A DNA stretch of 64,000 nucleotides, taken from NCBI RefSeq assembly GCF_015711015.1, contig NZ_CP064653.1, positions 3,596,001 through 3,660,000 of the forward strand, read 5' to 3'. Source of the stretch: Methylomonas sp. LL1 (GTDB taxonomy: Bacteria > Pseudomonadota > Gammaproteobacteria > Methylococcales > Methylomonadaceae). Position numbers and translations under genes: made by a program. Position 1 is the stretch's first letter. Every line of letters begins with the position of its first letter. Shown here piece after piece: positions 52,056 to 64,000 of the stretch. A model generated the notes under the pieces. That model was not told the origin of the DNA. It searched no databases and worked only from the letters and a program-made list of their open reading frames with translations.

Positions 52056-52537
52056 CTACCGGGTTCGGTCTAGTTTCCGGTAGCTGATGGCTTCGCTAAG
52101 GTGGTGGATTTCGATGGTTTTCGAGTCGGCCAGGTCGGCAATGGTGCGGGCCAGTTTTAGAATACGGTGATAGGCGCGATGAGATAGGCCGAATCGATCA
52201 AGAGCCTGTTCCAGCAGTTGATGACCGGCTTCGGACAACGTGCAAAATAGTTTTATTTCTTTAGCGCTTAACAAGGCATTGGTTTTACCTTGGCGTTGAT
52301 AAGCAATTCCTCGGGCGGCGATCACGCGACAGCGGATCTCGCTACTATTTTCCTCCCCTTGCAGCGAACCCTTGCGTAACACTTCCAAGGGTACTCGCGG
52401 TACTTCCAGATGCATGTCGATCCGGTCCAACAAAGGTCCCGAGATGCGTGCGCGGTAGCGTGAGACCTGTTCCGATGTGCAATGACAGCGTCCGGACGCG
52501 TCGCCCAGGTAACCGCATGGACAAGGATTCATCGCGA
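52056..52537 (-). pseudogene. comM: C-terminal fragment of comM (YifB Mg-chelatase-like ATPase)
   Basis: ComM is a hexameric helicase that promotes branch migration in natural transformation; the intact protein is about 500 residues. Only the last 160 or so are present, from AMNPCPCGYLGD on, including ISGPLLDRIDMHLEVP and GLSHRAYHRILKLARTIADL. Residues upstream of that alanine (the frame runs on to an ATG at 52589) have no similarity to ComM. The N-terminal domain and Walker motifs are lost, so the gene is inactive. The break at about 52537 marks the edge of the accessory region. Confidence 0.85.
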
Positions 52538-52559
52538 ATATACTTTTACGAAAAATCCC

Positions 52560-53438
52560 AAAAAATGAACTTAGCAAAGTGCTTGTCAAAGTCTATCTAA
52601 ATAAAGCAAATTAAAAAAATATAATTTGTTGTGATTTGTGCGCGGAGCGCGTCTTTAAATGGCTTGGATGTTATCTCCCAAGGTTGTGGTCAGGCGGTGG
52701 ATTAGTGTGTAGAAGGGGTGGGTAACGCGCTTTTTGCGTTATCCATGCCTTCTGCACACGTCCCGTAAGGGAATCCACGGGCTGTCCACATCCTTGGGCG
52801 AGACAGGCTCTTAAATCAGGTTTTTAAAAATATTTGAAAGCGAAAGTAACCTCGTGAGCCCTATTATCGGTCGGCTATCGTGAGTCGAAGGCATCCTGGA
52901 TGAATGAGTTACTGGATTTACAGACTCGTAATTTGTTGGCCTTTTCCGACTTTTCAGCTGAACACTCGATTCATATCCGCACGCCCAACCCAATCGAATC
53001 GAATCGAATCTAGTTTTTCTACGATTCGCCTTTAGTAAAACTCGCATCAAAACTCGTGTGGCGCAATACCTGATGAGCTTGGTGTCCAATTGGTGATCAC
53101 CAAAGAGAAAAGTTGGCGTAAGAAATGAGGTTTAAAACGACACCGTATCTGATTGATGGAATTCATTTTCAAGATAGCATTGCCGTCATTTCGATTCGGA
53201 TAAAACAGACAACATACGGCAGATCTCTTCGCATACACCTAAATTGACTATTTCTTAAATTATTAAGTGTATTGACTGTGTTATATCAAAATACCGCCAA
53301 TGTAAGTTGCACAAACTAAGATTAGTATTTATTCTGATTTCTTTTAGATGAAATTCGGTTTTTGATAGTTTAGTTTCTTATCATTATATAGTGTTCCGCC
53401 TATAATAATAATTATCTTTATTCTGCCAATAATTAGTC
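52560..53438. other. Non-coding AT-rich junction region with palindrome
   Basis: Nearly 900 bases without a supported gene follow the comM break. They hold the 122-base palindrome at 52677-52798, a short tandem repeat of AATCG (52992-53010, almost four units), and the very AT-rich leader of the ankyrin gene. No transposase end or attachment site could be identified. Confidence 0.4.
52677..52798. repeat. 122-base imperfect palindrome (MITE- or REP-like)
   Basis: The two ends read CCCAAGGTTGTGGTCAGGCG and, reverse-complemented, CCCAAGGATGTGGACAGCCC. The inner arms GTAGAAGGGGTGGGTAACGC and GCAGAAGGCATGGATAACGC flank a short CGCTTTTT loop near 52730-52736. Most positions pair over about 50 bases per arm, with one asymmetric interruption. 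No protein is encoded. Confidence 0.8.
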
Positions 53439-54374
53439 ATGCATAAAACTTCATTAGTTTCGGCAATCCTTGCCTTCAACATCACTGAAATTGAATCGCT
53501 CATCAACTCAGGCGAAAACATAAACCAATCTTGGGATGGTTTTACCCCCATTCAATATGCAATATATCTCAAAAAAGTTAAAATCGCCAAACTTCTGATT
53601 GCAAATAACGCCGACTTACGGATCTATGATTGCGAAAACGAATCCCCGCTTGAACACATATTCAAGAAATTCAAAGAGCCAACAGCGCTGTCGATCTTAA
53701 AATCTCTCCCCGACATCCATATCGCGGACAATTACGAACGAAACACTGCGCTTCATTACGCCTCGCGCCGCAACTATACCAAATGCATTGATTACCTTAT
53801 TGATAAAGGAGCAAACCCGAATGCCCTAAACAGACATGGGCAATCAGCGATATTCTTCGCTGCTAAAAGCGACGCTTGGCAAAGCATAGATTTGCTGGCC
53901 AGCAGAGGTGCTGATGTTGATTTGCGTGACAAAGTTGATAAAAAGTTTTGGAGCCCAATCTTTTACGCAATATGCAAATCACATGCTGAATGTGTCTCAG
54001 CACTAATCAAGCACGGCGCTTATGTCAATCTTGTCGATAGTGATGGATCAACGCCGATTTTTTATGCGTTTCACGATATCCAGCTTGTGAGCTTATTGGT
54101 CATGAACGGCGCTAATCTTGAAGTTGAAGATAAGTATGGGCGAACACCGCTATTCCATGCAGTGTTCAGCGGAAATGCTCAAATTGTGGAGCTACTGATG
54201 AGGTATGGTTCCAAAGTTGATCATCGTGACTATCAGGACCGGTCATCAATGCAATATGCGATACAGCGAGGTGATGATCGGATTGTTCAGATTTTGATGA
54301 ATCGCTGTAACAGTGTTGAGTATTTGGGCAACACGAAAAATTGTGCGGTTGAGCTGGCCACCGATATTGGATAA
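53439..54374 (+). CDS. Ankyrin-repeat protein
   Basis: The 311-residue protein is made almost entirely of ankyrin repeats, six or seven in number. Clear ones include NTALHYASRRNYTKCIDYLI, then SAIFFAAKSDAWQSIDLLAS, SPIFYAICKSHAECVSALIK and TPLFHAVFSGNAQIVELLMR. No signal peptide, membrane span or catalytic domain is visible. Ankyrin repeats mediate protein-protein binding; the partner is unknown. It stands alone on its strand and faces the zinc-ribbon gene at 54409 tail to tail. Confidence 0.85.
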   Translation: MHKTSLVSAILAFNITEIESLINSGENINQSWDGFTPIQYAIYLKKVKIAKLLIANNADLRIYDCENESPLEHIFKKFKEPTALSILKSLPDIHIADNYERNTALHYASRRNYTKCIDYLIDKGANPNALNRHGQSAIFFAAKSDAWQSIDLLASRGADVDLRDKVDKKFWSPIFYAICKSHAECVSALIKHGAYVNLVDSDGSTPIFYAFHDIQLVSLLVMNGANLEVEDKYGRTPLFHAVFSGNAQIVELLMRYGSKVDHRDYQDRSSMQYAIQRGDDRIVQILMNRCNSVEYLGNTKNCAVELATDIG

Positions 54375-60373: not shown

Positions 60374-61612
60374 TCAAAAAAGCAGACCCTGAAAAAATGT
60401 CAAAATTTCGGGATATTTGTAAAATAATAAAATGATCACAATGAGGAAAGGAGTCAAGCTAAGCCAGTTCAGTCTTTCCAAATCTCTGTCAATGGATTCT
60501 GATCTTTTGATCAAATTATTTTGTTTATCATTAACAAATTGAGCTGCACTTTCTTCTCTATTTTCAAACTTTTCAAAAACCTCATTCAACGCCAATTTAA
60601 TGTCTTTTAATCTGTCTCGATGTTGTTTAATTAATCTGCACATAAAGACGGATATCAGTAAAACAGAAAAACTTATTACCAGGCCATTAATTAATTCTTT
60701 TTCTTTGATTAATGCTGCTATAGTTGCTATTGATATTGGTATTGAAAAGCCTTTATTTAAGACATCATTTAATGTGTTTTCTATTTTATGCGCGAATTCC
60801 TCATGTTTTTCTATGACTTCTTTTTTGAAGTCCTTTAATGAGAATCCATTAATATATGTTTCATAATTATCTTGATAAAGCTGTTTAAATACTTCAAACT
60901 CAGAGAGAATATCGCCGAGACGTTGATTTATGGTCGGTCGTTTAGAAAGGAGTTCTTCCAAAGCATTACGAACGACAGCAAGCCTTTCATGGCTGTGTAA
61001 GTCTTCGTTTGTCAGCATTTCCTCAAAATACTCTAAACCATCAAGATTTTGTAATTCATGAAAAGTAAAGCGCGATTCTATTAGATGTTTTTTAAACCCC
61101 TTGCTTTCTTTGTCTTCAGTTAAAAGGACAAAGAGGTAGGAATCTCTTTTTTCTTCTGTGTGAGGCAGCGCTTGCTTTAAAAAGACAATCCATCGGCAAA
61201 CTTTTCTTAACTGTTGGAGTTTTTCAGGTTCGTCAACCTCACCAGTTAGGTAATCATTTTCGATCAGATAAAATTCGTCAGGTAACAATCCTTTTTTTAC
61301 GCCAGTATGGTGTGATATTAAATCATCTACATTTAAAAAGAACCGTTTAAATCCACTTATAATCGGGAAATTTAATGTAAATTTTAATTTTGGGTTATTT
61401 TGAGTTTCTGGTATAGGCAAGCTTTGGGCGCTTTCGTTGCAGCTAACCAATTCTAAAATATCATCTTTTTGCTGATAAATTTTATTGATAAGTAATCTTA
61501 CTTCTTCGTCATATAATATCTCACAATTAACAGAAGAGTTGCCATTAAAATCAGGCTTGCCACATAGCCTGTATAGCTTTACAACATTGCTTAATAATGA
61601 CAGACTACCCAT
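60374..61612 (-). CDS. Three-helix membrane protein encoded with an NdpA-like protein
   Basis: No named family recognised. Residues 1 to about 285 are cytoplasmic and charged, with helical parts (ALEELLSKRPTINQRLGDIL). A hairpin of two membrane helices follows at about 289-303 (FSIPISIATIAALI) and 309-328 (GLVISFSVLLISVFMCRLI). A charged coiled-coil-like segment (about 330-385) leads to a third helix near 386-402. The start codon lies within the end of the upstream gene, an eight-base overlap (ATGGGTAG), so the two are translationally coupled. The base composition is much more AT-rich than in the housekeeping region. Confidence 0.8.
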   Translation of the reverse strand: MGSLSLLSNVVKLYRLCGKPDFNGNSSVNCEILYDEEVRLLINKIYQQKDDILELVSCNESAQSLPIPETQNNPKLKFTLNFPIISGFKRFFLNVDDLISHHTGVKKGLLPDEFYLIENDYLTGEVDEPEKLQQLRKVCRWIVFLKQALPHTEEKRDSYLFVLLTEDKESKGFKKHLIESRFTFHELQNLDGLEYFEEMLTNEDLHSHERLAVVRNALEELLSKRPTINQRLGDILSEFEVFKQLYQDNYETYINGFSLKDFKKEVIEKHEEFAHKIENTLNDVLNKGFSIPISIATIAALIKEKELINGLVISFSVLLISVFMCRLIKQHRDRLKDIKLALNEVFEKFENREESAAQFVNDKQNNLIKRSESIDRDLERLNWLSLTPFLIVIILLFYKYPEILTFFQGLLF

Positions 61613-62654
61613 TTATTTCAGCTATTACATTGCCTAACTCATCTATCAATTTTTGAGGTAGGTTATTTATAGTTAACGATTTTTCTTCAAAATCAAAAAT
61701 AATTTCAGCTTGGGAATCTGGAGTTCCTAAGGAGTTCTTGTCAAAAGACAAATCCCATGTGGCCGATTTATAAGAAACGCGCTTATATTTTTTTAATGCG
61801 GTTATATTCGGAACAAACTCTTGGCTAATTCTAAACTCTTCAGAATTAGCTTTTTCAATAAAATTATCGTGAAACTCAATTGGCAAGTGGGCGTTAAGCT
61901 TTGCTGCAATTTCTTCTAACATAACACTTTTGGGATGTCTTTCCTTAAGAAAATCATGAATTTCGGCTCTAATAGATTTCTTGTCTAAGATATCGGCATC
62001 TGAACAGATTGCCTCTATCAAATGAAAAACATTATCTGTTGCGAGATTTGAAGGAATTAAATCAGTACAACCCAATGCCTTAGTAAAATATCCAGTAATA
62101 TCCTTTTTCTGATCTCCCTTAAGAAAACTTAAATAAGCTTCTTCTGCATTTTCAAGGCGATTTAAATCTATGCGAGCAGCTTGGTGAAGTTTATCCAAAT
62201 CTATTTGATGTACATCAGTTAAGTCCATGTCTGAAGTAAAGGTCAGGCCACCTTTATCTTTGATCATAACAACTAGGTAATATGGTCCATTGTTGTTGAT
62301 GTAATGAGCAAAAACAAGGTATCCACCTGTTGCAAAGTTTTCCTTTTCAATCTCAATTTTGAGTCTATTTACTGCTTTACGCGATAACTCAATAAACACT
62401 TCTTTTGAATAGTCATCTTTGTTTATTTCTTTGACCCATGACTGAAATGGGTGATTGTTAACATCCCTATTAAATGACCCAAATGTTTTTCCTGTTTTAT
62501 AAATTTTTAAAATAGATTCTATTAATGTTATTACTTTTTGGTTTTCGGAATCAAAGATATCGTCTCGATATTGAATTACTGCTTCAACTTGTGGTTTGCC
62601 ACTTTCTTGCTTGTCCTTAATAATTTTATGCGCAATTGCATTGATGATTTCCAT
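61605..62654 (-). CDS. NdpA/YejK-family nucleoid-associated protein
   Basis: The 349-residue protein resembles E. coli YejK (37-kDa nucleoid-associated protein): YKTGKTFGSFNRDVNNHPFQ, then FATGGYLVFAHYINNNGPYY, DLDKLHQAARIDLNRLENAE and YLSFLKGDQKKDITGYFTKA (family pattern YLTFLKGR-x-x-x-x-ADFF). These proteins bind DNA and their exact role is poorly known. A GGGGAG lies about nine bases upstream of the start. It is the first gene of a two-gene operon with the membrane protein and is divergent in context from typical chromosomal yejK, which sits alone. Confidence 0.85.
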   Translation of the reverse strand: MEIINAIAHKIIKDKQESGKPQVEAVIQYRDDIFDSENQKVITLIESILKIYKTGKTFGSFNRDVNNHPFQSWVKEINKDDYSKEVFIELSRKAVNRLKIEIEKENFATGGYLVFAHYINNNGPYYLVVMIKDKGGLTFTSDMDLTDVHQIDLDKLHQAARIDLNRLENAEEAYLSFLKGDQKKDITGYFTKALGCTDLIPSNLATDNVFHLIEAICSDADILDKKSIRAEIHDFLKERHPKSVMLEEIAAKLNAHLPIEFHDNFIEKANSEEFRISQEFVPNITALKKYKRVSYKSATWDLSFDKNSLGTPDSQAEIIFDFEEKSLTINNLPQKLIDELGNVIAEING

Positions 62655-63032: not shown

Positions 63033-64000
63033 TTAGATGCTATCCTGAAGCCTAATACGCTCGTTTTTGGCTTTGTATTTCTCGACTTTATTTTTTCTAA
63101 TCAAAGATCCGAGTGCTTTTGATACTTTCTTTTCAAACTCAACCCGTGGTTTACCTCGGGTAATTATTTCGAGTTGTTTGAGCACCCTAGTGCCAATTGA
63201 CTCGATTGTGCATGACTGATTCGGGCAATTTGCAAGTACGGTGAGAATTGCTTCTTGAATTTCAGACAATTCAATGATGTCTAGCTTTCGATGTTCAGCA
63301 GACTCAATAGCGTCTTCAATGATATTGTCAGCAAAGAGATCTTCATTTTGGGGAGTAATTTGACGTTTTGTTTCAACGCTATCTTCCTTGACCTCAAACG
63401 CTAATTCTTCTGATTCATCCTCTTCAACAACATTGATGACTTGGTATGGATCGACAACTTTCGAGCAAACCCATTGGGAATTATCAACAGATTCCGAACC
63501 CAATGGATCAATTCCCATTTTGTAGAGAGTATTCAATAAATCATCGAATACTTCTTGTCTACGCATGACGAAACTGGACGCAAAGCATCGCCAGAAAGTC
63601 CAGCCGGCCCGTTCAAGAACACGCTGCCTGGTCATGTCATTCATCCATTGGCCTGGGCCATGGAATTTATCACCATCACATTCAACAGCCAGTCTTCGAC
63701 CTTCCGAACCTTCAACGACAAAATCAATGCGATATGCGCCACAGCGAACCTGTGGTTTGACTCGATAATTTCGCTCGACCAATAGATCAAAAATTTCGCG
63801 CTCAAAATCCGATTCACACAATTCTCGTAGCGACGATACCTGTTTGGCGTCTTGAATGAATGGTTGTTTAAAATGGCGAAAAACCTTGGCAGTTAAACTA
63901 TCAGGCTTCAACTCATTTTCATCGATCGAACGAAACAGATACATACGATCGCGAGCACGCGAAAGCGCAACGTTAAACCGCTGCTCAATTTCCAGGCGAT
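63033..64000 (-). CDS. SF1 helicase with C-terminal restriction-endonuclease-like domain (partial)
   Basis: The frame stays open from the stop at 63033 to the window edge, so the N-terminal part is outside; the ATG at 63944 is internal. The last upstream residues read QRFNVALSRARDRMYLF, helicase motif VI of UvrD/Upf1-type SF1 enzymes. A PD-(D/E)XK (MTES_1575/DUF559-like) domain follows: SDFEREIFDLLVERNYRV, YRIDFVVEG and LAVECDGDKFHGPGQWMND. The C-terminal part (about 160 residues) is an acidic linker and a small helical domain. Such large helicase-nucleases are common in defence and mobile regions. Confidence 0.85.
   Translation of the reverse strand, partial: RLEIEQRFNVALSRARDRMYLFRSIDENELKPDSLTAKVFRHFKQPFIQDAKQVSSLRELCESDFEREIFDLLVERNYRVKPQVRCGAYRIDFVVEGSEGRRLAVECDGDKFHGPGQWMNDMTRQRVLERAGWTFWRCFASSFVMRRQEVFDDLLNTLYKMGIDPLGSESVDNSQWVCSKVVDPYQVINVVEEDESEELAFEVKEDSVETKRQITPQNEDLFADNIIEDAIESAEHRKLDIIELSEIQEAILTVLANCPNQSCTIESIGTRVLKQLEIITRGKPRVEFEKKVSKALGSLIRKNKVEKYKAKNERIRLQDSI

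Follow-up and report, generated by a model that had tools for sequence, protein, structure and literature searches.

The window, by which is meant the whole 64,000-nt stretch of Methylomonas sp. LL1 DNA analysed here, carries on its minus strand two overlapping genes that resemble the anti-phage system DS-1; coordinates without a prefix are window positions. The first gene (61605-62654, minus strand) encodes P0002, a DS1_1-like nucleoid-associated protein of the NA37/YejK (NdpA) type with 349 amino acids. The second (60374-61612, minus strand) encodes P0001, a DS1_2-like membrane protein of 412 amino acids, as indicated by NCBIfam, phrog_5023, an AlphaFold2 model and hydropathy. Both open reading frames (ORFs) were found where an earlier interpretation of the bare DNA letters, called here the sequence-only reading, had placed them, and they share 8 bases (61605-61612, minus strand), an overlap which suggests that the two genes are translationally coupled.

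The NdpA-type identity proposed earlier for the first gene was borne out. P0002 matches the Pfam family NA37 (PF04245) over the whole domain, at profile positions 1-324 of 325 (E 9.1e-57, 193.3 bits against a cut-off of 24.6), and with this full domain it has the same fold as YejK/NdpA (PF04245; structure 9be2). Proteins of the YejK/NdpA type bind DNA. The YejK model NF001557, which has a cut-off of 341, scores P0002 at 156.2 bits, above the 128.5 bits obtained with the DS1_1 model.

No Pfam family matches P0001 at E 0.1. The protein does match phrog_5023, a PHROGs family to which no function is assigned, over 6-398 of 412 positions (E 2.4e-40), as do all 19 members of the P0001-family alignment. 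Hydropathy analysis (Kyte-Doolittle, 19-residue window) gave three hydrophobic segments, all encoded on the minus strand: residues 284-302 (codons at 60707-60763; value 1.62), 307-325 (60638-60694; 2.37) and 381-399 (60416-60472; 1.76). The AlphaFold2 model, built with 38 homologues (mean predicted local distance difference test score 85.5, predicted template modelling score 0.66), begins with an alpha/beta part that extends to about residue 237; a long helix (239-300) and helices 307-352 and 354-399 follow. The hydrophobic segments sit in these three helices, the first overshooting its helix by two residues, in agreement with the three C-terminal membrane helices that had been described for the partner.

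Release 20.0 of NCBIfam (June 2026) holds two models of direct relevance, NF053868 (DS1_1, 'nucleoid-associated anti-phage protein') and NF053869 (DS1_2, 'anti-phage protein'). P0002 matches DS1_1 with 128.5 bits (E 3e-37) over model positions 30-367 of 369, and residues 75-396 of P0001 match DS1_2 with 124.8 bits (E 4.1e-36) over positions 17-335 of 337; the same models are matched by 16 of the 18 members of the P0002-family alignment and by 18 of the 19 members of the P0001-family alignment, respectively. In the accessible part of the DefensePredictor paper, 42 of 94 cloned units were protective, and a 'YejK nucleoid-associated domain' is named among the domains for which a defence role was newly validated (PMC13092281). 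Going by name and domain, the DS1 of NCBIfam is probably the DS-1 of that paper, as far as its accessible part goes. The earlier statement that no described system has this composition was outdated by 2026, when both families were named DS1 anti-phage in NCBIfam. Judged by these matches, the composition can be taken as already described under the name DS-1, with the window copy as a clearly homologous, distant relative.

The distribution of the pair was followed by locus searches in which only the membrane protein P0001 was used. P0001 itself was matched in 4 of 72,556 plasmid records, all four with an annotated nucleoid-associated protein directly upstream, in 5 of 50,697 phage records (four of them examined) and in 3 of 369 genomes of the class, including its own. 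A profile search with the P0001 family gave 10 of 398 genomes of the phylum, again including its own, and scans with conserved stretches contributed 20 genome contigs and two sets of viral contigs, of 26 and 2; viral sequences scanned with P0001 alone yielded no match. The resulting 68 loci, the window's among them, come from phages, plasmids and chromosomes and form 50 clusters at 90% identity, duplicates being kept (e.g. L023 and L062).

An NA37 ORF was found beside the membrane gene and on the same strand at 66 of the 68 loci, so homologues of the membrane protein do not occur mostly without NdpA partners. The two ORFs are at most 60 nt apart in 63 cases, and they overlap in 53 of the 66, including the window; the latter figure is an upper estimate because the most upstream start codon was taken. 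An apparent gap of 365 nt at L063/L024 arises because the membrane gene is broken there. As for the two loci that have no NA37, the contig of L057 begins within the membrane gene, and L030 is a remnant near a contig end in which the membrane gene is reduced to its C-terminal third, preceded by unrelated sequence. At L065, L073 and L078 the NA37 ORF is short or fragmented. Mean identity among 38 membrane proteins is about 24%. Wherever the annotation of a locus was read, the carrier proved to be a plasmid, a phage, in one case an E. coli prophage, or the island of the window. The two proteins also co-vary: between the P0002 and P0001 distance matrices r is 0.959 over 38 pairs, a value reached in none of 2000 permutations. 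P0002 and P0001 form a conserved two-gene module.

When a Klebsiella phage pair was used as the query, 39 of 5,426 E. coli genomes matched at 60-80% DNA identity, none of them over at least 80% of the query. In the one E. coli copy that was examined (L130:6981-9352), the DS-1-like pair lies in a prophage between an antiterminator Q gene and the lysis gene essD; on the side of essD it is accompanied by a small gene and one for a DNA methyltransferase. Two further phage settings were recorded: a DS-1-like pair in a Klebsiella phage (L019:3821-6182), and a pair at L002:916-3465 whose neighbour resembles, by eye, a gene for a tail protein of the P2 gpD type. Accessory sites of P2-like prophages have a similar setting.

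The surroundings of the window pair are AT-rich, as the sequence-only reading had stated: the GC content is 0.336 and 0.350 in the 2-kb intervals from 60001 and 61001, against 0.45-0.64 in those ending by 53000. The helicase-nuclease which it had placed next to the pair was likewise recovered, as a protein of 1615 amino acids with AAA_11/AAA_12 domains and the REase domain MTES_1575. The 3' part of its gene occupies 63033-63998 on the minus strand (whole gene L004:4033-8880) and adjoins the pair; it is not counted as a member of the module (Pfam MTES_1575; PADLOC PDC-S37, E 2.2e-69, and Hhe, 6.9e-32). PADLOC found further defence genes beside the pair, namely type I HsdR (E 1.5e-43), HsdS (E 8.4e-98) and a Mokosh MkoB-like protein (E 1.2e-97). 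On account of these restriction-modification (R-M), Mokosh and PDC-S37/Hhe-like neighbours, the region is called a defence island.

The left border of the island was taken to be the C-terminal piece of a gene which we assume to be of the comM/yifB type (52056-52589, minus strand; PF01078 positions 153-204). The N-terminal part lies about 63 kb away on the same strand (G000:C2:3711747-3712808) and covers PF01078 positions 1-185, with internal stops, and PF13541 positions 1-118. With the gene in two separated parts, the pair apparently lies inside a gene-splitting island; an AT-rich element of about 63 kb appears to have divided the comM-type gene. Near its far end are a tyrosine recombinase (L133:6494-7735; XerD-type, E 1e-11) and a RecD2-like helicase (E 1.2e-76). 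The island also holds an ankyrin-repeat protein at its left end (53439-54374; PADLOC PDC-M72A, E 3.3e-33) and an AAA ATPase beside a UvrD-like helicase gene (L132:14441-17025), an arrangement that looks Gabija-like by eye and has weak NCBIfam matches.

NA37 was also surveyed in its own right. It was present in 12 of 229 genomes with 15 matches, and the neighbours were read for about 1.5 kb on each side. Two matches belong to DS-1-type pairs (the window and G077), one has a partner of the kind described below as P0003, one has a partner with a RelA/SpoT domain, ten are full-length proteins lacking these partners and one is a fragment. For two of the ten solitary proteins, further membrane ORFs follow at a short distance downstream, on the same strand (L092:1-1298 and L093:2562-2960). 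Since most of the sampled NA37 proteins have no such partner, NA37 does not predict the module, whereas the membrane protein does predict NA37.

A second NA37 pair, P0004 and P0003, is present in the same genome (L084:7778-10309; G000:C2:2667777-2670308), adjoining the hsdR of an EcoAI-type type I R-M system. P0004 is an NA37 protein (L084:9236-10309; E 3.5e-16) and is followed by P0003, which has 483 amino acids and hydrophobic segments at 351-369, 382-400 and 451-469. The P0003-type arrangement recurs on five plasmid loci, four by annotation (L087, L106, L108 and L109) and one as an ORF (L107); at a hydropathy threshold of 1.45, all three C-terminal segments are seen in L087 and L109 and two in L106, L107 and L108. 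P0004 matches 13 plasmid records, six of which were examined. On a Clostridioides plasmid that bears phage-like genes, NA37 stands without a long adjoining partner gene (L110:3995-4999). The NA37 proteins of the P0003-type and P0001-type pairs are homologous (probability 98.7%, E 3.7e-16, with a profile that also holds the RelA/SpoT-type NA37s), and the P0003 and P0001 families have no detectable homology (profile probability 0.8%). In a third arrangement, the NA37 gene is followed by a gene with a RelA/SpoT domain. It was found in a genome (L099:1468-3542; PF04607, E 6.3e-13) and, as annotated, on two plasmids that belong to different genera (L104:3001-5081 and L105:3001-5084); L111 and L112 resemble such pairs by eye only. 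The RelA/SpoT-domain class includes toxic proteins of defence systems.

In a tree of 58 NA37 proteins, in which the solitary rows are only the ten from one search, the partner types cluster, the four labels needing 5 changes where shuffling gave a mean of 19.0. All six P0003-type rows fall in one group (support 100/99), as do all four RelA/SpoT-type rows (support 89/42), the join of the latter being flagged as a possible long-branch effect. The RelA/SpoT partners and the second kind of C-terminal transmembrane (TM) partner fit a constant NA37 with a variable effector. It is therefore proposed, with slightly less than even confidence, that on mobile DNA the NA37/YejK proteins supply the constant, DNA-sensing component of a wider two-gene defence class whose second gene is exchanged. 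This gene would encode a DS1_2-type membrane protein with three helices, a RelA/SpoT-domain enzyme or an unrelated protein of about 480 amino acids with C-terminal TM segments. If this were true, the housekeeping YejK would be a relative of an immune sensor.

A DS-1-like defence role is very probable for the window pair. The sensor-effector system suggested by the sequence-only reading held as regards a two-gene defence module, in view of the near-obligate pairing, the mobile or defence-island settings of the loci examined and the NCBIfam names; the novelty claimed for its composition did not hold. As to how the module may work, NA37 as a sensor controlling a membrane effector is a reading to which about even odds are given. 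According to it, P0002 would bind DNA and act as a sensor or regulator, presumably sensing phage DNA, and would control the co-translated P0001, probably with the two proteins touching. P0001, with its alpha/beta domain, long helix and three membrane helices, would be the effector; it would most likely disturb the membrane, and the infected cell would stop phage production. The toxic output would lie in the membrane part, and the placing of the alpha/beta domain on one side of the membrane (cytoplasmic in the sequence-only reading) is likewise presumed.

A number of observations weigh against this interpretation, or against its extension to a wider class. The scores of the window pair (128.5 and 124.8 bits) widely miss the curated equivalog cut-offs of 330 for DS1_1 and 315 for DS1_2. 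The E. coli prophage pair also stays under both (98.7 and 99.8 bits), which indicates that the NCBIfam DS1 models are narrow; with homologous but sub-cut-off scores, the window pair was filed as DS-1-like and not as an NCBIfam equivalog. The mirror-tree correlation of P0002 and P0001 shows joint inheritance and not contact. The P0001 model gave no fold match at Foldseek E <= 0.001 against the PDB and viral models, and hence no pore or channel fold backs membrane damage. No single branch of the NA37 tree parts the DS-1-type rows from the solitary YejK-type ones, so that NA37 by itself is no defence marker. The alternative partners are rare, too: P0003 was found in its own genome only out of 274, in 4 of 72,556 plasmid records and in no phage record, and NA37 of the L099 type in 2 of 274 genomes (one a weak match) and 5 of 72,556 plasmid records, and one of the six P0004-like plasmid records examined, the Clostridioides record, has no such partner. 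Lastly, in Kiwa the roles are reversed, in that the membrane protein senses and the DNA-binding protein acts (PMC12904381).

A Kiwa-like mechanism is the main rival. P0001 would then be an inner-membrane sensor and anchor, and NA37 the effector, which would clamp the phage DNA as it enters and keep it from being replicated or transcribed, the cell being left alive. This is considered rather unlikely, though to be taken seriously. The NA37-RelA/SpoT pairs, which have no membrane protein, favour the second gene as the effector.

The tight overlap, a first gene from a DNA-binding family and a possibly toxic second gene would also suit a toxin-antitoxin-like pair, in which NA37 restrains the membrane protein and represses the operon until phage takeover frees the membrane protein, and the NA37-RelA/SpoT pairs do look like toxin-antitoxin pairs. 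Such a pair is nevertheless improbable here, as the membrane gene is kept beside a short or broken NA37 at L065, L073 and L078, unlike what is expected of an essential antitoxin, although the membrane genes there may be silent or the breaks sequencing errors. Least credible is a role outside defence, with NA37 regulating the mobile element and its membrane partner helping to maintain or transfer the element, along the lines suggested for NdpA2 of the integrative and conjugative element (ICE) PAPI-1; NdpA2 and the transfer of this element are the subject of PMC8565334, as its accessible part indicates, and the commonness of NA37 on plasmids (P0002 matches 209 of 72,556 records) counts in the same direction. 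Against it, the pair occurs in unrelated carriers (a prophage, phages, plasmids and a chromosomal island), and NCBIfam names both families anti-phage.

In the accessible part of PMC13092281, DS-1 is named and its mechanism is not explained. The DS-1-like family is broad and very diverged, and it is carried by temperate phages and plasmids. The change in the kind of NA37 partner leads to a testable rule, one sensor with different effectors, for the YejK-type proteins of mobile elements, which have long been called nucleoid proteins; this swappable partner is the part most worth following.

On comparing the window pair with related systems, it was found that Kiwa (KwaA/KwaB) likewise has two genes, for a membrane protein and a DNA-binding protein. 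It differs in that no sequence homology between KwaB and NA37 was found (profile comparison 0.1-0.2%; P0002 has no match to KwaB, PF16162/DUF4868, in Pfam up to E 0.1) and in that P0001 has 412 amino acids against 193 for the product of the gene before KwaB in L113, which is KwaA by position only. At the level of sequence models, P0001 gave no Kiwa match in Pfam or PADLOC up to E 0.1. The P0004 and P0003 pair shares with the window pair the order of an NA37 gene followed by a gene for a large protein whose C-terminal part has three hydrophobic segments, although that membrane protein has no detectable homology to P0001. From DS-1 the window pair is set apart as a divergent relative, far below the equivalog cut-offs, and it has the same make-up, a YejK/NA37 anti-phage protein together with a second anti-phage protein.
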